A stretch of 64,000 nt of DNA. Source: Thermoanaerobaculia bacterium. GTDB taxonomy: Bacteria; Acidobacteriota; Thermoanaerobaculia; Multivoradales; JAHEKO01. Below the pieces are notes generated by a model. The model saw only the letters and a list, made by a program, of their open reading frames with translations. It was not told the DNA's origin and made no database searches. Shown one piece after another: positions 2,279 through 43,962 of the stretch (positions are counted from its first letter, which is position 1; each line of letters starts with the position of its first letter). The stretch is from assembly GCA_947259925.1 (NCBI GenBank), contig CAMYOG010000006.1, positions 1-64,000 on the forward strand, in the 5' to 3' direction. Position numbers and translations under genes: made by a program.

Positions 2279-4081
2279 ATGTCGATCACGCGAGCAGTCG
2301 CCGTCGTCGTGCTCACGCTCCTCGTGGCGACGCCGGCTGGAGCCGACAAGTCGTACTCGATCCTCGGTCTCCAGATCGATGCCTGGGTCCAGGACGACGG
2401 CACGCTGCGGGTCGAGGAGGAGATCTCCTACCGCTTCTCGGGCTCGTTCAGCTTCGCCTACCGCGAGATCCGCACCGAGCAGGGTGAGAGACTCCGCGAC
2501 TTCACCGTCTCGGACGCGACCAGCGGCGACTACCGGCAGTCGAGCGAGCGCCGGGCGGGCAACTTCACGGTCGAGGCCCGGTCACGCAAGACCAAGGTCA
2601 CCTGGCACTACAGTGCCTACAACGAGACGCGCGCGTTCAAGTTCGGCTACACGGTCGACGGTGTGGTCAAGCGCTATCTCGACGTGGTCGAGCTCTACTA
2701 CAAGTTCGTCGGCGCCGACTGGGACCGGCAGATCGGCTCGGTCAAGGTGCGGATCCATCCGATCAGCGGGGTGGACGGCTCGGCGGTGCGGGCCTGGGCG
2801 CACGGTCCGCTGCACGGATACGTCACGGTCCCGGGCGACGGCTCGGCCGCGCTGACTGTCGCGCCGCTCCCCGCCAAGCGGTTCTGGGAGGGTCGCGTCG
2901 TCTATCCCGAGTCGGCGCTCCCCGACGTTGCCTACGCCGCGAACGAATCACGGCTCGAGCGGATCCTGGACGAAGAGGGGCGGTGGGCCGAGGAGGCGAA
3001 CGCCAAGCGCCTGGCCGCCGACCGCCGGTCCGCGAGCCGGGGAACCTGGGCCAGGCTCGCCGCCGCTCTGGGCCTGGCGGGACTGATCTTCTGGGGGCTC
3101 CTGTTCCGCAAGCACTCGTGGCCGCACCGCCCGGCGCCGACCGTCGCGCCGGGCGAGATTCCCGATGAGACACCCCCGGCACTAGTCGCGATGCTCGTGC
3201 GTCCCCAGGATGTCGGCGGCATGCTGACCAGCACCCTCCTCGACCTGGCCCGGCGCGGCTACTTCGAGATCAGCGAGGAAGAAGAAACCTACAAGCTGCT
3301 CTTCTTCGGCCCGAGGACCCGCCCCGACTACCTCTTCCGGCGGCTCGACCAGGAGGCCGGAGATCTCGAGCCGTTCGAGGCCGAGCTGCTGGCGTTCTTC
3401 GACCAGCTCTCCGAACGGGCCGACGGCTTCCGCATGTCGGAGTTCAAGAAGACCGCTCGCAAGAACCGATACGCGGTCTCGAGCTTCCTCCGCGACTGGA
3501 GGAAGACCCTCCGCGAGCGCGTCGACGTGCTCGGCTGGCGTGAGATCCCACCCACTCGCGTTCTGCTCACGAACGCCATCTGCGGCGTCGGCATCGCCGT
3601 GGTCGGCATCGGCATCTGCTTCTGGAACCGCTCCGAGGTAGGCGTGCCAGCGATCGTCCTGGGCTTCCTTCAGGCGATGCTGACCGCGGCGCTGCGCAGA
3701 CTGTCGCCCGACGGCAAGCGTCAGTATCTGCACTGGCAGGGGTTCCGGAAACACCTCGCTTCGCTCTCCAAGATGATGGGCCCGCCGTCGCTCACCTCCG
3801 ACGACTGGGAGCGCTACCTGATCTACGCGGTCGCGCTCGGCCTGCACCGCAAGGTCGTGCCGGTGCTCGGAGAGCTGGCGCCGGAGCACCATTACCGGCC
3901 GGTCTGGTACACCTCGCACGCCGACGGCCTGGCGTCGAGCGACCTCGGTCAGCTCGGCCAGGGCATCTCGAGCATGGTCAGCTCGGTCTCGACGTCGCTC
4001 AGCTCGGCGACCGGCTCGAGCGGCGGTGCGAGTGGTGGAGGTGGGGGCGGGGGTGGGGGCGGGGGTGGGGGGGCCGGCTAG
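2279..4081 (+). CDS. DUF2207 domain-containing membrane protein with poly-Gly C-terminus
   Basis: In-frame ATG at 2279 with signal peptide; N-terminal DUF2207-like region, TM segments, SSGGASGGGGGGGGGGGGGAG tail typical of the family. Confidence 0.8.
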   Translation: MSITRAVAVVVLTLLVATPAGADKSYSILGLQIDAWVQDDGTLRVEEEISYRFSGSFSFAYREIRTEQGERLRDFTVSDATSGDYRQSSERRAGNFTVEARSRKTKVTWHYSAYNETRAFKFGYTVDGVVKRYLDVVELYYKFVGADWDRQIGSVKVRIHPISGVDGSAVRAWAHGPLHGYVTVPGDGSAALTVAPLPAKRFWEGRVVYPESALPDVAYAANESRLERILDEEGRWAEEANAKRLAADRRSASRGTWARLAAALGLAGLIFWGLLFRKHSWPHRPAPTVAPGEIPDETPPALVAMLVRPQDVGGMLTSTLLDLARRGYFEISEEEETYKLLFFGPRTRPDYLFRRLDQEAGDLEPFEAELLAFFDQLSERADGFRMSEFKKTARKNRYAVSSFLRDWRKTLRERVDVLGWREIPPTRVLLTNAICGVGIAVVGIGICFWNRSEVGVPAIVLGFLQAMLTAALRRLSPDGKRQYLHWQGFRKHLASLSKMMGPPSLTSDDWERYLIYAVALGLHRKVVPVLGELAPEHHYRPVWYTSHADGLASSDLGQLGQGISSMVSSVSTSLSSATGSSGGASGGGGGGGGGGGGGAG

Positions 4082-4273
4082 CCCGCCAAGGAGGGCCCGC
4101 CCAAGAAGGGTCAGGCTTTTCGGAGAGGGATCACGTCCTTGACCGTGCGGCCCGACTCGACCTCTTGAAGCACGCGGATGATCTGCTCCTCGCTGTAGCG
4201 CGTCTTGCGCAACGGCTCTGACCCATCCCCGGCGGCAACCTGGCAGTTGCACTGGACCCTTCGCTCGCCGGAT

Positions 4274-5383
4274 CTACCCCTGATCCCCGTACGTGTAGCC
4301 GCTCCGCACCCGCACCCGGAACTCCGGATTCGCCACCTTCACCTTGACGCGCTGGAACCCCGACTTGCCGGCCGGGTGGGCGCTCCGGTAGGCGATCAGG
4401 TAGTAGCCGCTGGTCGTGCGCGCGATGCGCTCGAGCGGCGAGCCGAAGCGGATGAAGGTGAAGTAGAAGTCCCCGCCGGTCGCCATCGCCAGGTTGTTGA
4501 GCGAGGCGCGCAGGGAGTGGTCGGTGTGGGTCGGGACGATGTCGATGGTGTAGGCGGCCACGTTGGCGTCGTTGAGCGCCCTAATGGTCGGAAACATCAG
4601 CCGGTAGTCGGTGCTCCGGATGTGGTCGAAGCCGACGCCGACGAAGACCAGGTTCTTGCGTCCCGGCACGGTGGCCGACGCCTTCGCCAGTAGCTGCAGG
4701 CCCTGGTAGATGTTCTTCGACTGCTTGCGCAGCTCCTTGCCGGTCGGCAAGGCGCGGAGCAAGGGACCCATCTCCTCCTCCGGCGGTCGCCGCGATGGCC
4801 ACTGCGAGGCGGGGTCGACGCCGCGCAAGCCGTTGGAGATCCCCTGAAGGATCGCCTGGCGATCCCGGGTGAAGTCCTGGTGCACCTTGAGCCGGTACCC
4901 GTAGGAGACCACCGCGACGAAGTCGGCCGGGTCGAGGCTCGACACCACCCACTCCTCCATCGCCCTGGCCGCCTGGTGCTGGCGGGCGAACAGGTTGTTG
5001 ATACCGCGACCGCCCGCGCGCAGCTCCTGGAAGAAAAGGATGAAGTGGCGGTCCTCGGGGATGTCGCTCAGATCGAAACCGGGCAGGTCGACCGTCGACG
5101 ACTCCACTCGCTCCTGGCTGCTGTAGAAGCTGACGCCGGCGATCTCCACCGGCCGGCCACTCTCCTCGATGACGAAGTCGTCCTTGCCCAGACCCAGGAT
5201 CACCCGCCCGTCCTTGTCGGTCACCAGAGCGTCCAGCAGGACCTCCGAGACCACCATCTCCTCTTCGAAGACCTCGAGCTCATCGTCTTGTGCGGCTACC
5301 GGGTGTGCTAGCGAGAGGACGATCCCCAGGGTGAGCGCCCACACTGCGGCGGTCCCGAATCGTGTCGTTTCGATGCTGATCAC
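4274..5383 (-). CDS. VWFA-related domain protein (acidobacterial type)
   Basis: LLDALVTDKDGRVILGLGKDDFVIEESGRPVEIAGVSFY and C-terminal TSGYYLIAYRSAHPAGKSGFQRVKVKVANPEFRVRVRSGY; start taken as GTG at 5383. Confidence 0.8.
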   Translation of the reverse strand: MISIETTRFGTAAVWALTLGIVLSLAHPVAAQDDELEVFEEEMVVSEVLLDALVTDKDGRVILGLGKDDFVIEESGRPVEIAGVSFYSSQERVESSTVDLPGFDLSDIPEDRHFILFFQELRAGGRGINNLFARQHQAARAMEEWVVSSLDPADFVAVVSYGYRLKVHQDFTRDRQAILQGISNGLRGVDPASQWPSRRPPEEEMGPLLRALPTGKELRKQSKNIYQGLQLLAKASATVPGRKNLVFVGVGFDHIRSTDYRLMFPTIRALNDANVAAYTIDIVPTHTDHSLRASLNNLAMATGGDFYFTFIRFGSPLERIARTTSGYYLIAYRSAHPAGKSGFQRVKVKVANPEFRVRVRSGYTYGDQG

Positions 5384-5508
5384 TGCTTGCCTCCCTGTTC
5401 TGCGCCCGCCCCCGGCACCGGATGGAGCAACCAGCATGCCATACCGCAGGCCGTCATATGATGCGGCCTTCCACGACCCGTTCGACTCAACCGCCCGAGG
5501 AGGTTTCC

Positions 5509-7566
5509 ATGAAGCCGCGAAACTGCCTGGTCCTCGCCCTCACCCTGCTCACCCCGTCGCTCGCCGTCGCCGACGGCGACGCCCACTTCGAGCCGATCGA
5601 CGTCTTCGAGCTCGAATGGGCCGCCGATCCGCAGATCTCGCCCGACGGCAGCCGCATCGCCTACGTGCGCAATTTCTTCGACGTCATGACCGACAGCCGG
5701 CGCGCCAACATCTGGATCGTCGACTTCGACGGATCGAGCCACCGGCCGCTCACCTCGGGCAACAACAACAACACCTCGCCGCGCTGGTCGCCGAGCGGAG
5801 ATCGGCTGCTCTACGTGTCGAACGAGGAGGGGTCCGCACAGCTCCACATGCGCTGGATGGACAGCGGCCAGACCGCCAAGATCACCAACCTGACCAGTGG
5901 TCCGGGCGGCCTCGCCTGGTCGCCCAACGGCCAGTGGATCGCGCTGTCGATGCACGTGCCGAGCCGGCCCGAGCCGATGGCCGAGATGCCGCCCAGGCCG
6001 GACGGCGCCGAGTGGGCGGATCCGCCGCGGGTGATCGAGAACCTCGTCTACCGTGCCGACGGCGCCGGCTACCTGGAGCCGGGCTACTCACACCTCTTCG
6101 TGGTGCCGGCCGAGGGAGGCTCTCCTCGGCAGATCACCAGCGGCGACTTCGACCACGACGGGACGCCAGAGTGGACGCCGGATGGCAAGCACCTGATCAT
6201 CTCCGCCAACCGCCACGACGAGTGGGAGTACGAGCCGCTCGACTCGGAAATCTACGAGGTTTCGGTTCGAGACGGCGCGATGCGGGCGCTGACCGACCGC
6301 CGGGGTCCGGACAACGCGCCGGCGCTCTCGCCCGACGGCGGCAAGATCGCCTACCTCGGCTTCGACGATCACCGCCAGGGCTATACGGTCACCCGGCTCT
6401 ACGTCATGAACCGCGATGGCAGCGGCTCGCGGGTCGTCACCGGCGATTTCGATCGGAGCGTGCAGGACCCCCAGTGGTCCGCGGACGGCGAGGGGCTCTT
6501 CTTTCGGTACAACACCGAGGGCAACGGCAAGGTCGGCTACGTCTCGCTCGCCGGCAAGGTCGAGACGCTCGCGGACGACGTCGGCGATTCGATCGGCCGC
6601 CCCTACTCGGGCGGCTGGTTGAGCGTATCGGACAGCGGTCGTTTCGCGTTTACGACGGCGCCACCCGAGCGTCCGGCGGACCTCGCGGTCGGCAGCCGGA
6701 GCGGCGGCGCGGCGACGCGGATCACCGACCTGAACGGCGACCTCCTGGCCCACAAGGAGCTGGCGGAAGTCGAAGAGATCTGGTGGGAATCGTCGCACGA
6801 CGGGCGCCGGATCCAGGGCTGGATCGCGAAGCCTCCGGGCTTCGATCCCGGGCAGAAGTACCCGCTCGTCCTCGAGATCCACGGCGGGCCGTTCGCCAAC
6901 TACGGCGATCGGTTCTCGTCCGAGGTGCAGCTGTTCGCTGCCGCCGGCTACGTCGTCCTCTACGCCAACCCGCGCGGCTCGACCAGCTACGGCCAGGAGT
7001 TCGGCAACCTGATCCACCACAACTACCCCGGCCAGGACTTCGACGATCTGATGTCGGGCATCGACGCGATGATCGCCGAGGGATACGTCGACGAAGACCA
7101 GCTGTTCGTGACCGGCGGCAGCGGCGGCGGCGTGCTGACCGCCTGGATCGTCGGCCATACCGATCGCTTCGCCGCCGCGGTCTCGGCCAAGCCGGTCATC
7201 AACTGGTACAGCTTCGTCCTCACCGCGGACTTCTACGCGTTCTTCTACAAGTACTGGTTCTCGGGCTTCCCCTGGGACGTGCCCGAGGAGTACCTGCAGC
7301 GCTCGCCGCTGCACCACGTCGGCAAGGTCACCACGCCGACCATGCTGCTCACCGGCGAGGTCGACTACCGGACGCCGATGTCGGAGTCCGAGCAGTTCTA
7401 CCAGGCGCTCAAGCTGCGCAAGATCGACACGGCGCTGGTGCGGATACCTGACGCCTCGCACGGCATCGCCCGGCGTCCGAGCCAGCTGATCGCCAAGGTC
7501 GCCCACGTGCTGGCCTGGTTCGAGCGTTACCAGACGGACGACGGAGCGACCCCGGAGGCGCCCTAG
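5509..7566 (+). CDS. S9 family peptidase (prolyl oligopeptidase / acylaminoacyl peptidase type)
   Basis: Signal peptide, TolB-like propeller repeats, LEIHGGPFANYGDRFSSEVQLFAAAGYVVLYANPRGSTSYGQEF, GGSGGG nucleophile region; RBS gaggagg before ATG 5509. Confidence 0.9.
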   Translation: MKPRNCLVLALTLLTPSLAVADGDAHFEPIDVFELEWAADPQISPDGSRIAYVRNFFDVMTDSRRANIWIVDFDGSSHRPLTSGNNNNTSPRWSPSGDRLLYVSNEEGSAQLHMRWMDSGQTAKITNLTSGPGGLAWSPNGQWIALSMHVPSRPEPMAEMPPRPDGAEWADPPRVIENLVYRADGAGYLEPGYSHLFVVPAEGGSPRQITSGDFDHDGTPEWTPDGKHLIISANRHDEWEYEPLDSEIYEVSVRDGAMRALTDRRGPDNAPALSPDGGKIAYLGFDDHRQGYTVTRLYVMNRDGSGSRVVTGDFDRSVQDPQWSADGEGLFFRYNTEGNGKVGYVSLAGKVETLADDVGDSIGRPYSGGWLSVSDSGRFAFTTAPPERPADLAVGSRSGGAATRITDLNGDLLAHKELAEVEEIWWESSHDGRRIQGWIAKPPGFDPGQKYPLVLEIHGGPFANYGDRFSSEVQLFAAAGYVVLYANPRGSTSYGQEFGNLIHHNYPGQDFDDLMSGIDAMIAEGYVDEDQLFVTGGSGGGVLTAWIVGHTDRFAAAVSAKPVINWYSFVLTADFYAFFYKYWFSGFPWDVPEEYLQRSPLHHVGKVTTPTMLLTGEVDYRTPMSESEQFYQALKLRKIDTALVRIPDASHGIARRPSQLIAKVAHVLAWFERYQTDDGATPEAP

Positions 7567-29226: not shown

Positions 29227-30128
29227 GCGACCGGAGGCGGGTCGTCGTCGTCGGCAGCGCCAACACCGACATGGTGGTCGGCAGCGATCGCCTCCCGGCC
29301 GCGGGCGAGACGGTCCTCGGCGGCACCTTCCTGATGGCCGCCGGCGGCAAGGGAGCGAATCAGGCGGTGGCGGCGGCCCGTCTGGGGGCGGAGGTTTCAC
29401 TGGTCGCCAGGCTCGGCAGCGATATCTTCGGCGACCAGTCCCTGGCCGGCTTCGAACGCGAGCGGATCGACACCCGCTTCGTCGTGCGCGATCCGAACGC
29501 ACCCTCCGGTGTCGCCCTGATCCTGGTCGATGCCGGAGGTGAGAATCTGATCTCGGTGGCACCGGGCGCCAACGCCCGGCTGAGCGTGGCCGATGTCGAA
29601 TCGGCGCGAGCCGTGATCGAGGGCGCCGCGATCGTGCTCCTGCAACTCGAGGTGCCGCTGGATGCGGTCGGCAGAACCGCGGAGATCGCGGCCGACGCCG
29701 GAGTGCCGGTGATCCTCGATCCGGCGCCGGCGCAGGAGCTCGACGCTGGGCTGCTGGCTACCGTCTCCATCCTGACGCCCAACGAGAGCGAAGCGGAGCG
29801 GCTGACCGGGATCCCGGTCGGCGACCGCAGCTCGGCGCACCGAGCCGCCACCGAGCTGCGAGCGCGAGGTGTCGAGAGCGTCGTCCTGACGCTCGGCGCA
29901 CGCGGCTGCTATCTACTCTCCGCGACCCACGAAGAGCTGGTGCCGGCGCCGACGGTCGAGGCAGTGGATACGACCGCCGCCGGCGACACGTTCAACGGCG
30001 CCCTCGCCTGGCAGCTCGCCAACGGGGTCTCGCTGCGAACCGCGGCCGAGGTCGCGTCGCGCGCCGCCGCGCTATCGGTCACCCGTCGGGGTGCTCAGCC
30101 ATCGATGCCGACGGCCGACGAGATCTAG
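29223..30128 (+). CDS. rbsK: Ribokinase
   Basis: VVVVGSANTDMVVGSDRLPAAGETVLGGTFLMAAGGKGANQAVAAARLGAEVSLVARLGSDIFG; DTTAAGDTFNGALA. Confidence 0.88.
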   Translation: MSDRRRVVVVGSANTDMVVGSDRLPAAGETVLGGTFLMAAGGKGANQAVAAARLGAEVSLVARLGSDIFGDQSLAGFERERIDTRFVVRDPNAPSGVALILVDAGGENLISVAPGANARLSVADVESARAVIEGAAIVLLQLEVPLDAVGRTAEIAADAGVPVILDPAPAQELDAGLLATVSILTPNESEAERLTGIPVGDRSSAHRAATELRARGVESVVLTLGARGCYLLSATHEELVPAPTVEAVDTTAAGDTFNGALAWQLANGVSLRTAAEVASRAAALSVTRRGAQPSMPTADEI

Positions 30129-32407
30129 AGCTCGGGCAGCCGGCCGCGCGCGGACCCGAGGAGCTCGAGGACACTCGATCCGGGCATCGGGCGGTTGAAC
30201 AGGAAGCCCTGCATCCGATGGCATCCCTCGGCGAGCAGAGCGTGCAGCTGCTCCGGTCGCTCGACGCCTTCGGCTACGACTTCGACCCCGAGCTTGCTGC
30301 CGAGGGTGGCGATCGCATTGACGATCACCCGGCTCTGCTCGTTCGACGGCACCTCGCGAACGAACGACGAATCTATCTTGAGCTTGTCGAGCGGGAAGTG
30401 GATGAGATAGCTCAGCGACGAGTACCCCTTGCCGAAGTCGTCGAGCGAGAAACGGACCCCGCGCTCGCGCAGGCGTCGCAGCATCGCCTCGACCGAGTCC
30501 GACGCCTGCATCAGCAGGCCTTCGGTCAGCTCGAGCTCGAGCAGGCTGGGAGGTAGCCCCGAGCTGTCGAGCGCCTCGCCCACCGCCCGGTGCAGATCGG
30601 GATCCTTGAACTGGACCGGAGACAGGTTGACCGCGATCGGGATGTCGATGCCACTCGCCACCCGCCACTCCTGGGCTTCAGCGCAGGCGCGTCGCAGCAC
30701 CCAGTTGCCGATCGGAACGATCAGGCCGCTCGCCTCGGCGATCGGCACGAAATCCGCCGGCGGCACCAGACCCTGCTCCGGATGGTGCCAGCGAAGGAGC
30801 CCCTCGATCGCCACGATCCTGCGGCTGCGCGCGTCCACCTGCGCCTGATACTCGAGCTCGAGCTCCCGGCGCTCGATCGCCCGGTGTAGCTGCTGCCCGT
30901 AACGCATGCGCTGTCTGACGTGGAGATCCATGCCGTCGAGGTAGAGGCGGAAGGTGGAGCCCCCTTCGTTCTTGGCCTTGTAGAGCGCGAGATCGGCGTT
31001 CTTGACCAGCTCCCTGGGATCCACGGACTCGGAGCGATGAATCGCGATGCCGATGCTGACGCTCAAGTGGACCTCGCGGTCGTCGACCTCGACCGGCCGG
31101 GTGAACGCGTGAATCAACCGCTGGGCCAGCTCCGTAGCTCCCCCGGTGTCGCTCAGGTCGGGCTGCAGGACGGCGAACTCGTCACCGCCGAAGCGGGCGA
31201 GCGTGCAGCCGTTCTGCAGGACCTCGGCCAGTCGCTCGGAGACGGCGATCAGGAAATCGTCGCCGACCGCATGACCGAACGTGTCGTTGATGTCCTTGAA
31301 CTGGTCGATGTCGAGCAGCAGCATCGCCAGCGAGCGGCCGTTCCGGATCGAGCGCTCGACCTCGAGCTTGAGCCGCTTGTTGAAGTTGTAGCGATTCGGC
31401 AGATCGGTGAGGAAGTCGTGCCCGGCCAGGTATCTCAACCGCTGCTCCGCCTCGAGCCGCGAGGTGATGTCCTGCTGGACGATGACGAAGTGTTGGCGCC
31501 GGTCCGCCGGATCGGAGAGACGGGTCACGGTCTGGTCGACCGTATAGAGGTGGCCGGCCTTGTGCCGCTGAACGGCGTGACCGCGCCAGAGATCGCCGAC
31601 CTCGAGCGAGCGCAGGTTCTCCCAGGCGAAGATCCGTGAGTCCTCGTCGGCCGCCAGCAGATCCGGACTGCGGCCCAACACCTCGTCTTCGCGGTAGCCG
31701 CTCAGCCGGCAGAAGGCGGGGTTGACCCACTCGATCTTCCCCTCGGTGTCGGTGATCAGAATCGAGCTGGCGGCCGCGTTCATCGCCGCCCCTTGCAGAC
31801 GCAGCCGCCGCTCGGCGGTCTTGCGGAACGAGATGTCGCTGTAGATCCCGAACAACCCCATCAGGCGCTCGCCGTCGAAGATCGGATAGCCGACGATGCG
31901 CACCTCGACCGTCGAGCCGTCCTTCCGGCGGCGCCGGCGCTCCGAGTTGATCACCTCGCCGCGCACGACGGCACCGGTCAGGTCGAGAGCCTCTTCGGCC
32001 GATCCCTCCGGGACGATCAGCTGGGTGAGCACCCGTCCCTGGACCTCCGCCAGCGAGTAGCCGAACATCTCTTCGAAGGCGCGGTTGGCGTCGATGACCC
32101 GGTCGTCGACCCCGAGCAGCACCATACCGTCGGGCGAGTTGTCGAACAGCTGCCGAAAGAAGACGTTGTCGAGCCTGGTGCTCGGAGCCGACGCGTCCGA
32201 GGATCGCGCCGCGCCCGCGGCCAGCATCCGCTCGAGATGCCTGATGCGCGCCAGCAGCGGCTCCACTTCCGACGGGCGCAGCTGCCCGGCCGAGGACTTG
32301 CGCTCGGGGAGCCGGGCGAGGCTGTCTTGGTCCACCGGCACTTTCCGCTTCCCGCCTGTGGTCGAGAACAGAGATTCTCCGGGTGCTACCCCGAAACGGC
32401 TAGGCAA
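30125..32407 (-). CDS. PAS-PAS-GGDEF-EAL cyclic-di-GMP signalling protein
   Basis: Two PAS regions, CTLARFGGDEFAVLQ intact GGDEF, EAL domain with IEGLLRWHHPEQGL (EGL variant) and later YSSLSYLIHFPLDKLKIDSSFV. Exact start uncertain. Confidence 0.92.
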   Translation of the reverse strand: MPSRFGVAPGESLFSTTGGKRKVPVDQDSLARLPERKSSAGQLRPSEVEPLLARIRHLERMLAAGAARSSDASAPSTRLDNVFFRQLFDNSPDGMVLLGVDDRVIDANRAFEEMFGYSLAEVQGRVLTQLIVPEGSAEEALDLTGAVVRGEVINSERRRRRKDGSTVEVRIVGYPIFDGERLMGLFGIYSDISFRKTAERRLRLQGAAMNAAASSILITDTEGKIEWVNPAFCRLSGYREDEVLGRSPDLLAADEDSRIFAWENLRSLEVGDLWRGHAVQRHKAGHLYTVDQTVTRLSDPADRRQHFVIVQQDITSRLEAEQRLRYLAGHDFLTDLPNRYNFNKRLKLEVERSIRNGRSLAMLLLDIDQFKDINDTFGHAVGDDFLIAVSERLAEVLQNGCTLARFGGDEFAVLQPDLSDTGGATELAQRLIHAFTRPVEVDDREVHLSVSIGIAIHRSESVDPRELVKNADLALYKAKNEGGSTFRLYLDGMDLHVRQRMRYGQQLHRAIERRELELEYQAQVDARSRRIVAIEGLLRWHHPEQGLVPPADFVPIAEASGLIVPIGNWVLRRACAEAQEWRVASGIDIPIAVNLSPVQFKDPDLHRAVGEALDSSGLPPSLLELELTEGLLMQASDSVEAMLRRLRERGVRFSLDDFGKGYSSLSYLIHFPLDKLKIDSSFVREVPSNEQSRVIVNAIATLGSKLGVEVVAEGVERPEQLHALLAEGCHRMQGFLFNRPMPGSSVLELLGSARGRLPEL

Positions 32408-35489: not shown

Positions 35490-35735
35490 TCACTGCGTGC
35501 GATGGTCCTCGAGTCGGAAGACGCCCGCTCCCTCATCGGGACCCGGCATCACGAGCGCGAGGCACGCGTAGGCCAGCACGCCCGGCGCGATGCCGGTCAA
35601 GAACGTCCCTCCCAGCCAGAGCACGCGCACGCTTCTCGGCTGCCAGCCCAGGAACTCCGCGATGCCGCCACAGACGCCCGCCAATACCGGGCTCGGCGAC
35701 TTGGTGAGTCGCGGTTTCTGTGGTGCCGGGCTCAT
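35490..35735 (-). CDS. PspC domain-containing protein
   Basis: [52 protein letters not shown]. Confidence 0.85.
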
Positions 35736-35832
35736 GAGCGGTGCGCACACGAAACCCTATCAGAGCGCTTCGGCCAGCGCCGCGCGGCGGCGCCCGATAC
35801 GAGCTAGAATCCCGCCTGCGCCGAGGCAGCCG

Positions 35833-37464
35833 ATGACCGCCCGCAAGACGAAGAAACGCAAGTCGACGCGCTCCTCGCCGCGCACCAAGAAGACCACCGC
35901 GGCGCCGCGCAAGCGCGCTACCGCCAAGAGCATGGCGGCCCAGCAGCGGGAGATCTCGGTCAGCGAGTTCTTCACCAAGAACCGGCATCTGCTCGGTTTC
36001 GACAGCCCGACCAAAGCGCTGCTCACGACCATCAAGGAGGCGGTCGACAACTCGCTCGACGCCTGCGAGGAGGCTGGCATCCTGCCCGACCTGGTGGTCG
36101 AGATCGAAGCCGTCGCCGAAGGCCGCTTCCGGATCATCGTCACCGACAACGGCCCGGGCATCGTCAAGAAGCAGGTGCCGAAGATCTTCGGCAAGCTGCT
36201 CTATGGCTCGAAGTTCCATCGTCTGCGCCAGAGCCGCGGCCAGCAGGGGATCGGCATCAGCGCCGCGGGCATGTACGGCCAGCTCACCACCGGCAAGCCG
36301 ATCGTCATCGAGAGCCGCGTCAGCCGCAGGTACCCGGCTCACCGCTATGAGCTGGTGATCGACACGCTCCGCAACCAGCCGGTGATCAAGAAAGAGGCCG
36401 AGGTCGAGTGGGAGGCGGCCCACGGCACCCGCGTGATGATCGAGCTCGAGGGCACCTACAAACGCGGACGGCACGGTGTCGGCACCTATCTACGGCAGAC
36501 CGCTCTCGCCAATCCGCACGTCCAGATCACCTTCGTCGGGCCCAACGAGGAAGAGCCCGAGGTCTACCAGCGGGCCAGCAAGGAGCTGCCGGTCGAAGCG
36601 CTCGAGATCAAGCCCCATCCGTACGGGGTCGAGGTCGGTCTGCTGATGAGAATGCTCAAGGAGACCAAGGCTCGACGCCTGCGATCGTTCTTCCAGACCG
36701 AGTTTAGCCGAGTCGGCCCGACGGTGGCGACGCGCATCGTCGAAGGCGCAGGAATGAACGTGACGACGTCTCCCCGCCGAGTCAGCACGGACCGCGCCGA
36801 ACAGCTCGTAGCGCAGATCCGCGAGACGCGGATCCCGGCGCCGCCGACCAACTGCCTGTCGCCGATCGGCGAGGAACGGATCCTCGCCAGCTTGAAGGAG
36901 CAGCTGGAGGCCAACTACTTCGCCGCCCTCTCCCGGCCGCCGGCGGTCTACCGAGGCAACCCGTTCCAGATCGAGGTCGGCGTGGCGTTCGGCGGCGAGA
37001 TGCCGGCCGACGAGCTGGTCAGTCTCTACCGCTTCGCCAACCGGGTGCCACTCCTCTACCAGCAGGGAGCGTGCGCGCTCACCAAGAGTGTGTTGAGCAC
37101 CAACTGGAAAGCGTACGGACTCCAGCAGAGCCGGGGCGCGCTGCCGACCGGTCCGATGATCCTGATGGTCCACATCGCCAGCGTCTGGGTACCGTTCACC
37201 AGCGAGTCGAAAGAGGCAGTGGCCGGCTACGACGAGATCCTGCGCGAGCTCCGGCTGGCGCTGCAGGGGGTCGGCCGCAAGCTGGGGACGCATATCCGGA
37301 AGGACCGCAAGCGCCTCGACGCCGAACGCAAGCACGCCTATATCGAGAAGTACATCCCGCACATCGGCATCGCGCTCAAAGAGATCCTCGACCTCAGCGA
37401 CCGGCAGGAGAAGAAGGTCGTGACCACGCTCAGCGGCACCCTGGCTCGCAGCCGCAAGATGTAG
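35833..37464 (+). CDS. top6B: DNA topoisomerase VI subunit B
   Basis: GHKL motifs [79 protein letters not shown]; Lys/Arg-rich N-terminal tail. Confidence 0.93.
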
Positions 37465-37494: not shown

Positions 37495-40400
37495 GTGAAA
37501 ACCGCCCAGGGCCTAGGCTCAGCCGGGGTGAGAGAGGATCGGCGTAAGCACCCGCGGCTGAAGATCCCCCTCGAGGTCGAATACCAGCTCGAGGGCGATC
37601 GCCTGTGTCAACAGGCGACCCTGATCGACCTGAGCGCCGGCGGCGTGGCGATAATCACCGACGACCCCCTGCCGACCGGCGGCAATCTGGCCTTCGTGCG
37701 CTTCAAGCTGGCGGCCGATGGCGACGCCGCGGCGCACATCATCGAGGCCGAGACCGAGGTAGTGCGCTGCATCCGCCGGGAGGGCATCGGCCGGCGATCC
37801 GAGTATCTGGTCGGCGCCAAGTTCCACAACCTCGACGAGGAGGTCTTCGCGCACCTCCAGACCTTCGTCGACGAGCAGCTGGCCAAGTCGGGAGACGGCA
37901 GCATGCCGGCTCCGCGGGTCAAGGTCGAGCAGCCGATCACCATCCAGTACGGGCGCTTCGACGAGTTCGTGAACGAGGTCGCCACCAACCTCTCGATGAC
38001 CGGCATGTTCATCCGGGCGAAAAAGCCCCGGCCACCCGGCTCGATGCTCGACTTCTCGTTTCAGCTCGGTGACGACTTCGACCTGGTGCACGGCAAGGCG
38101 GAGGTGGTCTGGACCCGGCCGCTGCCCGAAGGGCGCGATCGGCCGGCGGGCATGGGCATCAGGTTCACCGAGCTCGACCATGTCAGCCGCAAGGTGCTCG
38201 AGCAGATCCTGGAGAAGCGCCTGGGGCAGCCGGACGAGGGCCAGGGCCAGGGTCAGGGCCAACGCGAGGGCGAGGACAGCGCCCCGGCCGGCGACTCGCG
38301 CACCTCGGAGCTCGATGCCGAGCTCGAGAAGGTCCGCCAGGAGCTCGAAGGGGAGCTCGAGAGTGCCCGGAGCGAGTTGGCCCAGACCAAGAGCAAGCTA
38401 CAGCTCGCCGCCTCGGCGCTCGACGAGGCGATGCGCCAGCAGACCGCAGCCGAAGACGAAGCCCGGCGCCTGGGGACCGAGGCCGGGCCGCGCGAGGACG
38501 AGATCAACCGCCTCACCGGCGCCGCCGAAGGCGCCCTCGGAGAGGTGGAGCGACTGACCGCCGAGGTCGCGGGCAAGGAGTCGGAGCTTGCGTCGGCGTC
38601 GACGCGGATAGGTGACCTGGAGCGCAAGCTCAACACCGCCAATACCCGGGCCGCCGACCTCGATCGCCAGCTGGCGACCACCCTCGATCGGGTGACGGAG
38701 CTGGAAGCAGATCTCGGCGCCGCGAGCGAGCAGGACGGTCGACTCGAAGAGCTCCGAGGCAACCTGGAGGGTCGCCTGACGGAGGCCCGCCAGACGCGAG
38801 AGGAGCTCGAGGGCCGACTGGCCGAGACCGAGGAGGCGCGTGCCGAGCTCGAGCGTCAATTTGCCGAGCGCGACGAGGCCCGGGGTCAGCTCGAGGGCCG
38901 ACTGGCTGAGACCGAGGAGGCGCGCGCCGAGCTCGAGCGTCGATTGGCCGAGAGCGACGAGACCCGTGGGCAGCTCGAGGGCCGGTTGGCCGAGACGGAG
39001 GGGGCGCACGCCGAGCTCGAGCGTCGATTGGCCGAGAGCGACGAGACCCGTGGGCAGCTCGAGAGCCGGTTGGCCGAAAGCGACGAGGAGCGCCAGCGAT
39101 TCCGCGGTGAGCTCGCCGAGGTCGAGTCGGAGCGCGTCGAGCTCGGCCGCAGGTTCGACGAGCTGACCTCAGAGGTCCAGATGCTGCGCGAGGAGCGCGA
39201 GACCCTGGCGAGCCTCAACCGCGAGGTCGAGCAGGCGCGAGGCGAGCTGGCAGAGGAGCTCGAGCGTGCGCGGCACGCCACAACCGAGCAGGTGGAGAAC
39301 GCGCGCAATGAAACGGTCGAGCAGCTCCGCGAGCTCAGCCATGGTCTCGAAGTCGCCGGCAATGAGCTGGACGCACGCGAGCGGCGGATCGTGGAGCTCG
39401 ACCAGGCGCTAGCTGGCTCCGTACCCCGCGAGGAGCTGGACAAGGCGAACGCCGCCCGCGAGGAGGCCGCCCGCCAACGCGACAGCCTGCGGGCAAGTAT
39501 GAGCGAGCTCCAGGACGAGGCCGAAGCCCGGACTCGCCAGCTGCAGGACCGCATCGTCGTGCTCGAGGCTGACGGCGAGCACCTGCGGCAGCAGCTCGAA
39601 GGGGCGTCGACCGAGACCAAAACGATGCGGGAGGAGTTCGAGCGCTCCGAGCACGATCGGCGCGAGAGCGCGGCCCGAGCCGAGAACCTCAACTACCAGG
39701 TGCAGGAGCTCGAGCGCGAGACCGAGGCTCTCAGGAGCGGCCACGCCGACGAGTTGACCAGCCTGCGCGAGCGAGCCGAGCAGGAGAGGCGGGACGGAGA
39801 AGCCGCGGTGCTCGAGCTGGAGCACCGGCTGGAGCTGGCGAAGCAGACTGAGCACGAGCTGCGCACCGGGCTCGAGCAGACGACCAACGCCCGCGATGAG
39901 CTCTCGAACCGGACCGAGAACCTGGTCCAGGAGGCGGAGGACCTCCGTCAGGAAGCGGCCGCTCGCGACCGCGAGCTGACCGACGAGATCGGCGGTCTGG
40001 AGGCCCAGATCCGGCGGCTGGACGACGCGACCGGCGGCCTGCGCGAGGAGCTAGCTGCTCGCCACGTCGCCGCCGACGAGCAGCGTGTCGAGCTCGAGCA
40101 GGCTTTCCGTGCCTCGTCGAGACTGGAGGTGCGGCTCGCCGAGGCGGCGGCGGTCGAGCAGGGCGTCCGGCAGCAGGTCGAGTCCCTCCACGGCGAGCTC
40201 CAGGAGTCCAGGGCGCACGGCGACAGCCTCGAGGCCGGGCTCGCCCAGGCGGCCGAGCTGGAGAGCGGACTCCGCCAGGAGATCGAGGACCTCAAGAGTG
40301 CGCTCGCATCGGCCGAAGACCGTCGTGTGGCGCTCGAATCCGAGCTGGCCGAGACCGCGGCCACGGCCGAGCGGACCGCAAAGGAGAACCGCGAGCTCGA

Positions 40401-41133
40401 GATCATGAGGCGAAGCCTGATCGGCAACCAGGAGCGCCTGGAGGACAAGCTGGCGTCGACCAGCGCCGAGCTCTCCACCGTGCCCTCGATCGCGGATCAC
40501 GCGCCCGCCAAGCGGTCGTCCGCTCGCCGTAGCCTGCGAGCGGCGGCGCTGGTCGGTTTCGGTCTGATCCTCGGCTTCATCGCCTCCTACCCGTTCGAGA
40601 CGCTGCTGGTATCGGCCGATCCGATGGCGATCCCGATCTCGCCGCCGGCGGTCACCGAGTCGATCTCGAATGCCGCGCCCGAGAGCGCACTCGAAGTCGA
40701 GCCGTCCGATAGGGTCGAGGCGGCGGCATCGCTCTCCGAACCGGCCGCCGCGTCGGAGCCTCCGGCCGAGCCCGAGCCCGTCCGGCCGTCGCCAGAGGGA
40801 GCGATCGAGCGCTGGGCAGCCGCCTGGTCCAACCAGAGGGCCGCCGACTACCTCGCCTCGTACGCCACCTCGTTCGAGGTGCCCGAAGGCTTCGACCGGA
40901 GCAGCTGGGAGCTCTATCGGACCGAGCGCATCGAGAGTCCGAGCTCGATCGAGGTGACGCTGGGCGAGATCACCATCGAGATCTCCGGGCCCGATTCGGC
41001 CACCGCCACGTTCGAGCAGAGCTATGCCGCCGGAGCGCACTGGGACCGGGTACGCAAGACCCTCGACCTGGTCTGGGAAGGCGACGCCTGGCGCATTGCT
41101 CGCGAGAGCTCGGTCGAGCTCGAGCGGAGCTAG
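37495..41133 (+). CDS. Dual PilZ domain + long coiled-coil + TM + NTF2-like C-terminal domain protein
   Basis: RRKHPRLK...DLSAGG (PilZ motifs), second PilZ NLSMTGMFI...DRPAGMGIRF; ~700-aa coiled coil; TM AALVGFGLILGFIASYPF; C-terminal IERWAAAWSNQRAADYLASYATSFEVP...WDRVRKTLDLVWEGDAWRIARE. Confidence 0.85.
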   Translation: MKTAQGLGSAGVREDRRKHPRLKIPLEVEYQLEGDRLCQQATLIDLSAGGVAIITDDPLPTGGNLAFVRFKLAADGDAAAHIIEAETEVVRCIRREGIGRRSEYLVGAKFHNLDEEVFAHLQTFVDEQLAKSGDGSMPAPRVKVEQPITIQYGRFDEFVNEVATNLSMTGMFIRAKKPRPPGSMLDFSFQLGDDFDLVHGKAEVVWTRPLPEGRDRPAGMGIRFTELDHVSRKVLEQILEKRLGQPDEGQGQGQGQREGEDSAPAGDSRTSELDAELEKVRQELEGELESARSELAQTKSKLQLAASALDEAMRQQTAAEDEARRLGTEAGPREDEINRLTGAAEGALGEVERLTAEVAGKESELASASTRIGDLERKLNTANTRAADLDRQLATTLDRVTELEADLGAASEQDGRLEELRGNLEGRLTEARQTREELEGRLAETEEARAELERQFAERDEARGQLEGRLAETEEARAELERRLAESDETRGQLEGRLAETEGAHAELERRLAESDETRGQLESRLAESDEERQRFRGELAEVESERVELGRRFDELTSEVQMLREERETLASLNREVEQARGELAEELERARHATTEQVENARNETVEQLRELSHGLEVAGNELDARERRIVELDQALAGSVPREELDKANAAREEAARQRDSLRASMSELQDEAEARTRQLQDRIVVLEADGEHLRQQLEGASTETKTMREEFERSEHDRRESAARAENLNYQVQELERETEALRSGHADELTSLRERAEQERRDGEAAVLELEHRLELAKQTEHELRTGLEQTTNARDELSNRTENLVQEAEDLRQEAAARDRELTDEIGGLEAQIRRLDDATGGLREELAARHVAADEQRVELEQAFRASSRLEVRLAEAAAVEQGVRQQVESLHGELQESRAHGDSLEAGLAQAAELESGLRQEIEDLKSALASAEDRRVALESELAETAATAERTAKENRELEIMRRSLIGNQERLEDKLASTSAELSTVPSIADHAPAKRSSARRSLRAAALVGFGLILGFIASYPFETLLVSADPMAIPISPPAVTESISNAAPESALEVEPSDRVEAAASLSEPAAASEPPAEPEPVRPSPEGAIERWAAAWSNQRAADYLASYATSFEVPEGFDRSSWELYRTERIESPSSIEVTLGEITIEISGPDSATATFEQSYAAGAHWDRVRKTLDLVWEGDAWRIARESSVELERS
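38806..39100 (+). repeat. 84-bp in-frame tandem repeat encoding a 28-aa (4-heptad) coiled-coil unit
   Basis: ctcgagRgccg at 38806, 38890, 38974, 39058 (exact 84-nt spacing); unit approx LEGRLAETEEARAELERRLAESDETRGQ. Confidence 0.88.
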
Positions 41134-41142
41134 CCTGGCCTG

Positions 41143-41817
41143 CTAGCGCTTCTTGCGGCGGCTCTTGGCGCGCCGAATGTAGTCGATCGCGTCCGGCGTC
41201 TTGCAGCTGGTCTGACCGTGATCGACTTCCACCGGCCCGATCCGGCGCGCCGCGGCGATCGCCTTCCTCTCGAGCTTCGGACCGCGCATGCCGATCGCGA
41301 TCAGGGCGTTGTTCATCGCATGGCGGGTGCGGTTCTTGGCACTGCCGATCTCGCGCTCGATCGTGCCGAGCAGCTCCTCGAACGCCGCGTCGGTTAGCGA
41401 GTCGCTGCGCATCGCGCTGATCGCCACCAGGTTCCAGCCCGCCTGACCAAGGAAGTCGTTGCGCGAGGCGATCCAGCGCTTCAACTTGCTCTGGAGAAAC
41501 CTGGTCTTGGCGACCATCCCGGCGAAAGCGTCGGTGAGCGGGTAGTTTTCGAGGTCTCGAGCCCACCCGTCCAGGGTCTTGCTCCGGATGGCGCCAGGAT
41601 CGGCGATCATGGTGGCGAGCAGCCGTGCATCGTGGTTGCCGCTCGCCCACAGCTGCTCAGCCAGCGCCTGCTCCACCTTGATCTTCTTGGCCAGTTTGCC
41701 GAGGTGAGCGTAGCTGACGCCGAACATCTCGCCGCGCACCCCGTGGCGACCGTAGATCTTCCTATTCTGGGCGGTTCCGGCCGCCTTCAACTCCCTCATC
41801 ACCGCGCGATAGCTCAT
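41143..41817 (-). CDS. DNA alkylation repair (AlkD-like HEAT) protein
   Basis: MSYRAVMRELKAAGTAQNRKIYGRHGVRGEMFGVSYAHLGKLAKKI, WASGNHDARLLATMIADP, GWARDLENYPLTDAFAGMVAKT; basic C-terminus RRAKSRRKKR. Confidence 0.82.
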   Translation of the reverse strand: MSYRAVMRELKAAGTAQNRKIYGRHGVRGEMFGVSYAHLGKLAKKIKVEQALAEQLWASGNHDARLLATMIADPGAIRSKTLDGWARDLENYPLTDAFAGMVAKTRFLQSKLKRWIASRNDFLGQAGWNLVAISAMRSDSLTDAAFEELLGTIEREIGSAKNRTRHAMNNALIAIGMRGPKLERKAIAAARRIGPVEVDHGQTSCKTPDAIDYIRRAKSRRKKR

Positions 41818-41920: not shown

Positions 41921-43108
41921 ATGGCCAAGAAGAAACCCAAGACCGCCGCCAGGAGCCGCTCGAAGCGGGTCGGACGGAAGCGGACCACGACCTCGCGGAA
42001 GAAGTCCGCCGCCAAGACTCCGAGTCGCATCGACGTCGTGCGGCGCATTCGCGGTGAGGCCCGAGGCGTTCACAGCAAGATCCTCAAGCGCCGCACGCCG
42101 TCGATGAAGTTCCCGCTGCGCAGTCTGGCCAATGTGGTCTACCGCCCCGCCAAGGGGTATTTCCAGATCAAGGGCAAGAAAAAGGAGCGCACCCTGACGG
42201 TCGGCACGGTCAAGACGTTCGCCCAGACCCTGCGAATGATGGCGTTCTCCAAGGAGCTGGTGGAGACCGACGACATCGCCACCAAGCGGGAGGCCTACTA
42301 CGTCAGCAAGAACTGGGACGAGGCGCGGTTCAGCGAGCAGCCGGAGAGCGATGCGGTCATGGAGGACGTCGAAGCGCTGTTCGGCGTCAATCGGGAACAG
42401 CTCGGCTTCATCCCCGAGGAGAAGGGGGGCGACGTCGCTGGCCGCCTGGTAGTGATCGACAGCGATCGTGAGACCGGCGAGGAGCTGCGCATCGACTGCA
42501 CCAGGTTCGGCAGCGGCGCCTATTCGATTCCGATCTCGGTCGAGGACCTTCAGTTCGAGACCGACGCCACGTTCATTCTCGCCATCGAGACCGCCGGCAT
42601 GTTCCAGCGGCTGGTCAAGCACTCCTACTGGCGCCAGGCGGACTGCATTCTGGTCTCCCTCGGCGGCGTGCCGACGCGGGCGTGTCGGCGCTTCATCCGC
42701 CGGCTCTCGGACGCCCGTAACCTGCCGGTCTACGTCTTCGTCGACGGTGATCCGTACGGCTACTCGAACATCTACCGGACGCTCAAGGTCGGTAGCGGCA
42801 ACGCCGCGCACCTGAATGAGTTCTTCTGCGTCCCCCAGGCCCGGTTCCTGGGCGTGACGCCCGATGACATCACCGAGTACGACCTGCCGACACACCCGCT
42901 CAAGGAGGTCGATGTGAAGCGCGCCAAGGACGCGCTCAAGAACGATCCGTTCATCCGTCATCACCGCCAGTGGCAGCAGGCACTGGAACAGCAGATCAGG
43001 ATGGGCGTGCGGGTCGAGCAGCAGGCGCTGGCCAAGCACGGCCTCAACTACGTCATCGACGAGTACCTGCCGCGCAAGATGTCCGACACCGCCGCGTTTC
43101 TGCCCTGA
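41921..43108 (+). CDS. top6A: DNA topoisomerase VI subunit A
   Basis: Catalytic-Tyr region DIATKREAYYVSKNW; Toprim elements FILAIETAGMFQRL and VYVFVDGDPYGYSNIYRTLKVGSGNAAHLNEFFCVPQARFLGVTPDDI; Lys/Arg-rich N-terminal tail. Confidence 0.93.
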   Translation: MAKKKPKTAARSRSKRVGRKRTTTSRKKSAAKTPSRIDVVRRIRGEARGVHSKILKRRTPSMKFPLRSLANVVYRPAKGYFQIKGKKKERTLTVGTVKTFAQTLRMMAFSKELVETDDIATKREAYYVSKNWDEARFSEQPESDAVMEDVEALFGVNREQLGFIPEEKGGDVAGRLVVIDSDRETGEELRIDCTRFGSGAYSIPISVEDLQFETDATFILAIETAGMFQRLVKHSYWRQADCILVSLGGVPTRACRRFIRRLSDARNLPVYVFVDGDPYGYSNIYRTLKVGSGNAAHLNEFFCVPQARFLGVTPDDITEYDLPTHPLKEVDVKRAKDALKNDPFIRHHRQWQQALEQQIRMGVRVEQQALAKHGLNYVIDEYLPRKMSDTAAFLP

Positions 43109-43185: not shown

Positions 43186-43962
43186 ATGGCAGATCGGCGC
43201 AAGTTCCCGCGGTTGGTCGTGCCGCTGGCCGCCAGCTATCGGGTCGAGGGCTCGGTTCTCGGTCGACGCACGAGCCTGGCCAGCTTGAGTGCGACCGGTG
43301 CGTCGTTCATCGCCGAAGAACAGATCGATCCGGACAGCCGGATCGATTTCCTCAAGTTCACGCTCGGTGAGGGGCCGGAGACCCAGACCTTCGACCTAGC
43401 CGCGCGAGTCGTGTCATGCGAACACCGCGAAGGCATCGGGCGCGGCGATGAGTACCTGGTCGCGGTCGAGTTCATCGGCCAGAGTTTTGACCAGGTCCGG
43501 CAGATCAACGAGCTCGTGCTGGCCCAGCTGAAGAGCGACCCGACGCCCCGCGACCCACGCGTCGACATCGAGCGCCAGGTCGCGGTCCGTTTCGACCGCT
43601 TCGACCACTTCGTCGAGGAGGTGTCGAAGAACCTCTCGTGCACCGGGATGTTCCTGAGCAGCGAGCGACCTCGCCCGATCGGGACCCAGTTCGACTTCGT
43701 CCTGCAGCTGGGAGAGGACTTCAATCTGGTACAGGGGAGGGCCGAGGTCGTCTGGACTCGCCTGACCAGCGAAGGCGTCGATCGCCCCGCCGGTATGGGG
43801 ATCCGGTTTCTGCAGCTCGATGCCACCAGCGAGAACGTGCTGCAACGCCTGATCGAGGCGCACGCCGAGGCGAGCTACGCCCGCCAGATCGATCCGACCG
43901 ACGGGACCCCCGACCCACTCGAAGCGACTGACGGCGAGATCGACGAGCAGCAGGTCCAATAG
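43186..43962 (+). CDS. Dual PilZ domain protein, homologous to the N-terminus of the 37495-41133 product
   Basis: DRRKFPRLVVPL; PRVDIERQVAVRFDRFDHFVEEVSKNLSCTGMFLSSERPRPIGTQFDFVLQLGEDFNLVQGRAEVVWTRLTSEGVDRPAGMGIRFLQLD aligns residue by residue with the other PilZ gene. Confidence 0.85.
   Translation: MADRRKFPRLVVPLAASYRVEGSVLGRRTSLASLSATGASFIAEEQIDPDSRIDFLKFTLGEGPETQTFDLAARVVSCEHREGIGRGDEYLVAVEFIGQSFDQVRQINELVLAQLKSDPTPRDPRVDIERQVAVRFDRFDHFVEEVSKNLSCTGMFLSSERPRPIGTQFDFVLQLGEDFNLVQGRAEVVWTRLTSEGVDRPAGMGIRFLQLDATSENVLQRLIEAHAEASYARQIDPTDGTPDPLEATDGEIDEQQVQ

Follow-up and report, generated by a model that had tools for sequence, protein, structure and literature searches.

The gene described here occupies positions 37495..41133 (+) of the window, by which we mean the whole stretch of 64,000 nucleotides analysed, taken from a 4.72 Mb metagenome-assembled genome of a member of the Acidobacteriota, and it encodes a protein of 1212 amino acids from a GTG start with AGAGG 7 bases upstream. 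The nearest named relatives of this genome are Acidobacteriota MAGs, a number of which carry the label Thermoanaerobaculia. It begins 30 bp downstream of the gene for topoisomerase VI subunit B (35590..37464, +), an order that recurs in the other two members of the genus, and it is followed by an AlkD-type DNA alkylation repair gene on the opposite strand (41143..41817, -; ORF open to 42048), by the gene for topoisomerase VI subunit A (41921..43108, +) and by a stand-alone PilZ-PilZ paralogue of 258 amino acids (43186..43962, +) that shares 43% identity with the head of the long protein. A PAS-GGDEF-EAL-like protein with a GGDEF match is encoded approximately 5 kb away on the opposite strand (30125-32407, -). 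Pfam and NCBIfam matches, together with periodicity and hydropathy, bear out the domain order given in the original prediction, namely two PilZ domains, a coiled coil, a single transmembrane (TM) helix and an NTF2-like tail. These parts and their order are supported by sequence and structure comparison, while ligand binding, dimerisation and partner recruitment are what we infer from them.

Two stretches at the N-terminus match PF07238 (whole-protein E 1.7e-27, 96.2 bits against a Pfam cut-off of 22.5) and the NCBIfam model TIGR02266 also scores above its cut-off (89.6 bits against 68.7, E 1.1e-25), confirming the pair of PilZ regions expected there. The motifs cited for them, RKHPR (residues 17-21) and DLSAGG (residues 45-50), are present but both lie in PilZ1 (37537..37872, +; PF07238), where alignment finds the c-di-GMP motif pair of RxxxR and D/NxSxxG complete; PilZ2 (37912..38214, +; TIGR02266 type) has NLSMTG but carries MPAPR instead of RxxxR, and its pair is incomplete. 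An AlphaFold2 model of the head (pLDDT 82.8) has structural matches to PlzA, c-di-GMP-bound Alg44, YcgR, MotI and MrkH, although the relative orientation of PilZ1 and PilZ2 in it is not trusted, the linker block having a pLDDT of 56. PilZ1 by itself resembles c-di-GMP-bound Alg44, YcgR and PlzA, and also MotI, with Foldseek matches to the PilZ domains of Alg44, YcgR and MotI. Because both motifs are present and the model matches c-di-GMP-bound PilZ structures, PilZ1 probably binds c-di-GMP, a messenger in use in the source genome, which has 22 GGDEF matches. A complete motif is not sufficient for binding, since M. xanthus PlpA has complete PilZ motifs and yet is reported as a non-binder of c-di-GMP; PixB of the same organism, with altered motifs in both PilZ domains, still binds it (PMC8316039). 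PixB, which consists of two PilZ domains and an acetyltransferase, is like the present protein in its tandem PilZ arrangement with incomplete motifs, but as described it has neither rod nor NTF2 end (PMC8316039). The PlpA precedent (PMC8316039), and the degeneration of the motifs both in PilZ2 and in the PilZ1 domain of the L060 paralogue, would suit a constitutive wall or shape scaffold whose PilZ domains serve a structural purpose without binding nucleotide. However, RxxxR is retained in PilZ1 of 10 out of 10 aligned heads and D/NxSxxG in most, and we regard such a constitutive role as highly improbable.

The coiled-coil rod that follows (residues approximately 265-996; 38287..40482, +) contains two prolines only and few aromatic residues. 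The periodicity of its Leu, Ile, Val and Met residues has its peak at 3.51 residues, where the power of 35-37 is far above the shuffle maximum of 7.0-9.4, and its length of about 730-766 residues agrees with the ~700 first proposed; it would span up to ~110 nm if it formed one continuous helix. Comparison with the protein of a sister species (G001), which is split over two contigs and was joined at an exact protein overlap beforehand, gave a rod identity of 34%, against 26-33% for shuffled sequence and 62-75% for the protein ends. The two rods have 766 and 676 residues, respectively, and strong heptads in both. An 84-bp tandem repeat within the rod (38804..39093, +; 3.5 copies, 89% matches) has a unit of 28 amino acids, or four heptads, and duplication of this unit therefore changes the length of the rod without breaking the heptad register. 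Rod length is variable among the relatives, and the rod is sometimes absent. Since heptads are kept when sequence is not, length varies and the rod can be missing altogether, the rod looks to have been selected as a coiled coil, and not for a specific surface, which would make it a spacer and dimeriser. Membership of the SMC/Rad50 group was rejected (SMC 75.7 bits against a cut-off of 567), the matches being confined to the coiled coil and a head ATPase being absent. The rod gene of another genome, G006, has one in-frame TAG between PilZ head and rod (L066 5328-5330, -), which may reflect an assembly error, a pseudogene or a split gene.

One hydrophobic helix is found at about residue 1016 (KD 1.86), with a net charge of +4 before it and -2 after it. 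The basic segment (AKRSSARRSLR) and the helix (residues ~1016-1034) together occupy 40507..40596 (+), as foreseen in the original prediction, and the acidic, proline-containing linker expected beyond them corresponds to a Pro/Ala/Glu-rich stretch (40630..40779, +) that is predicted to be periplasmic. As the flanking charges are positive on the N side and negative on the C side, an N-in/C-out topology is predicted, which would make the PilZ head and the rod cytoplasmic and the NTF2 domain periplasmic. The N side is also the more positive in most relatives, with a weak or reversed bias in a few (L081, L166).

The tail (40780..41130, +) matches PF24125, Cds6_C, in Pfam (residues 1103-1204, E 4.4e-9, 37.1 bits against a cut-off of 27) and its model is very confident (pLDDT 96.9). 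The NTF2-like assignment thus stands, and can be narrowed to the peptidoglycan-linked type of Csd6, Pgp2 and Bd1075. A profile of the domain searched against the PDB returned, in order, Bd1075 (7o21, 2.6e-16), Csd6 (4xzz), Pgp2 (6xj6, 6xj7) and then a marginal SnoaL-like protein, and the top fold match of the model is likewise Bd1075 (TM 0.81, rmsd 1.8), with Pgp2 at TM 0.73-0.76. These L,D-carboxypeptidases, from H. pylori (Csd6), C. jejuni (Pgp2) and Bdellovibrio (Bd1075), have the same C-terminal domain and carry a YkuD catalytic domain, whereas a Pfam search found no YkuD domain in the 1212-residue protein, where the NTF2 domain forms the end of a TM protein bearing a PilZ head and rod. 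A generic NTF2 enzyme was considered and rejected: many such folds match structurally, but the sequence and the pocket are of the Csd6 type.

NMR shows the NTF2 domain of Pgp2 binding fragments of peptidoglycan; pull-down with sacculi is lost in K307A, and mutations of Y233, F242, K257, K307 and E324 harm helical shape in Campylobacter (PMC8038945). Numbered by the printed alignment, the equivalents of these five pocket residues are here Y, F, R, K and E, the replacement of K257 by R being conservative. The pocket is fully or nearly kept in 25 of 27 distinct relatives, a count that allows F/Y, K/R and one sequence ending before the last position; the exceptions are L035 and L060, the latter being the only paralogue that lacks a TM helix. 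Conservation in 25 of the 27, and the coincidence in L060 of an altered pocket with a missing TM helix, supports a peptidoglycan-facing role for the domain, although part of the conservation of the pocket residues may serve the fold. Both domains of Pgp2 are required for strong peptidoglycan binding, a point against the wall-anchored scaffold proposed below. Bd1075 owes its targeting to one side of the cell to its NTF2 domain (PMC8938487). With a tail of this peptidoglycan-pocket type, the protein is predicted to be tethered to the wall, and not to the membrane only.

Relatives of the protein assemble the same parts in several ways. PilZ-TM-NTF2 proteins of 340-470 amino acids are found in at least three families (f1, f4, f6) of the same taxonomic order; these short proteins (L004, L016, L018, L025, L165 and others) share the order of second-type PilZ, TM helix and NTF2 domain with the window protein but have one PilZ domain and no rod. 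A PilZ-PilZ-TM-NTF2 protein of 563 amino acids also lacks the rod (L013), the complete PilZ-PilZ-rod-TM-NTF2 arrangement is that of the window protein and of G001, over two contigs, and L060 is PilZ-PilZ-rod-NTF2. No paper describing a PilZ-coiled coil-TM-NTF2 architecture was found in the literature searched, and searches for PilZ with NTF2, for PilZ with Thermoanaerobaculia and for TIGR02266 returned nothing in that literature, the coverage of which falls short of most subscription journals. As such, the architecture may be called unusual, as first claimed, against the literature searched, but the recurrence of the short forms in the same order tempers the claim. A search of 396 genomes sampled from the phylum matched the full tandem PilZ head only in the window's own genome, others matching the second PilZ only; among close relatives, several genera of the family have the full head. 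In the L060 paralogue (3927-6947, +; 1007 amino acids) the PilZ1 motif has degraded to TLGAGG and the basic residues of the pocket are changed; this paralogue is possibly a derived cytoplasmic form. In a contig of G002, PilZ-PilZ-spacer-PilZ-PilZ-rod lies in one frame (L010 3-2105, -), representing a duplicated head or a mis-assembly.

The NTF2 end is also attached to other proteins. Cds6_C has 11 matches in the source genome, whereas only 2 of 148 further genomes sampled from the phylum, and none of 14 controls, have any; its partners in the source genome include EAL, YkuD, SH3, NHL and TPR, and one paralogue in the genome is a YkuD-Cds6_C enzyme. EAL-coiled coil-TM-NTF2 relatives occur in all three genus members, the G001 match covering residues 1-435 of the 564-residue query, so that two kinds of c-di-GMP protein, a PilZ sensor and an EAL eraser, share a TM-NTF2 end. 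One such EAL protein lies at L148 3706-5607 (-) in G000:C26, with its EAL residues intact by eye. Since these EAL and PilZ proteins are co-encoded with the 22 GGDEF matches, writers, eraser and sensors of c-di-GMP coexist in this genome. The presence of the same NTF2 end on PilZ, EAL, L,D-transpeptidase-type, SH3 and NHL proteins suggests that a module for wall targeting has been put to repeated use as a docking tag.

Two roles for the protein draw on its wider context. In the first, which takes up the polarity scaffold of the original prediction, a rod localised to a pole or other site would recruit pilus or gliding machinery in response to c-di-GMP, much as PlpA and PixA influence polarity in M. 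xanthus. Myxococcota have related single PilZ domains in abundance, polarity in M. xanthus is regulated by PilZ proteins (PMC8316039) and the source genome encodes T2SSE-family ATPases; these ATPases are however near universal, motility genes were absent among the neighbours examined, and the NTF2 end was in none of the myxobacterial relatives fetched. We therefore consider a polarity or motility scaffold unlikely. In the second, put forward in the original prediction as an envelope-to-nucleoid tether, the wall-anchored rod would place its PilZ head on the chromosome or topoisomerase VI and couple decatenation or segregation to c-di-GMP. The position of the rod gene between topVIB and topVIA, with the PilZ-PilZ gene after the latter, invites this reading, as does the adjacency of topVIB and rod gene in three of three genus members. 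Bacterial topoisomerase VI is sporadic and was gained at least twice from archaea, according to a survey (PMC11302465); its A subunit is found in 9 of 18 genomes of the family, that of the source organism included. Because the source genome has a single GyrA/ParC-family gene, topoisomerase VI may be the decatenase of this organism. Nucleoid proteins linked to c-di-GMP, CdbA and CdbS, are reported from M. xanthus. However, other genera of the family have topoisomerase VI without an adjoining rod gene, the rod genes of relatives neighbour Band_7, GSDH, His_Phos, Lactamase_B, ACR_tran or XdhC, and the opposite-strand gene separates the rod gene from topVIA. Pfam and NCBIfam found no DNA-binding domain in the 1212-residue protein, and the resemblance to SMC/Rad50 is one of coiled coils, far below cut-offs. 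As the adjacency fails outside the genus, we rejected the topoisomerase VI operon as strong functional evidence. The nucleoid tether thus found no direct support, its sole hint being the topoisomerase VI flanks, kept in the genus and not across the family; because the linkage is only genus-level we hold the tether to be possible but unsupported, and quite unlikely. The further proposal, that a c-di-GMP-gated wall-anchored rod and topoisomerase VI form a physical wall-chromosome link by which envelope growth is coordinated with decatenation or segregation, we judge very unlikely.

The other part of the original prediction, that of a long rod tethered to the membrane and headed by PilZ, is backed by the domain matches, the models, the predicted topology and the relatives. 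The protein is a real, well-formed, lineage-restricted PilZ effector with an informative, predicted wall-binding end, and the combination of c-di-GMP sensor, rod and wall-binding end appears to be new with respect to the papers searched and to form a small family in these bacteria. Judging from sequence and models, we think it fairly probable that the protein forms dimers in the inner membrane and serves there as a scaffold, responsive to c-di-GMP and anchored to the peptidoglycan wall. In such a scaffold the periplasmic NTF2 domain would bind peptidoglycan through a pocket of the Pgp2/Csd6 kind, as its homology and residue identities suggest, and the single TM helix would connect this domain with a coiled coil in the cytoplasm, which would dimerise the protein and hold the tandem PilZ head off the membrane, at a distance of as much as about 100 nm at full extension. 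Binding of c-di-GMP by PilZ1 would shift the arrangement of PilZ1 and PilZ2, and this shift may in turn recruit or release a cytoplasmic partner at wall sites set by the NTF2 domain. The scaffold is favoured by the PilZ1 motifs and model, the Csd6-type pocket, the N-in charges and the existence of other c-di-GMP-domain-TM-NTF2 proteins; it is weakened by the incomplete motif of PilZ2, the PlpA precedent, the charge bias of L081 and L166, and L060, which has coiled coil and NTF2 but no TM helix.

Alg44 of P. aeruginosa and other membrane PilZ effectors combine a PilZ head with a periplasmic part in a single-pass membrane protein. The likeness of the window protein to Alg44 lies in the fold match of PilZ1 and in this membrane PilZ layout; it differs in its tandem PilZ, its very long coiled coil and its NTF2 peptidoglycan-pocket domain, and alginate genes were absent among the rod-gene neighbours examined. 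The usual targets of c-di-GMP effectors are motors, polymerases or transcription. If the scaffold is correct, one polypeptide would join c-di-GMP to a peptidoglycan-recognition domain, providing a direct link from second messenger to wall. A further protein among the loci (L141 2455-3780, -) has a PilZ-like domain, a TM-like segment and a C-terminal region that has no Pfam match and is AMIN-like by eye.
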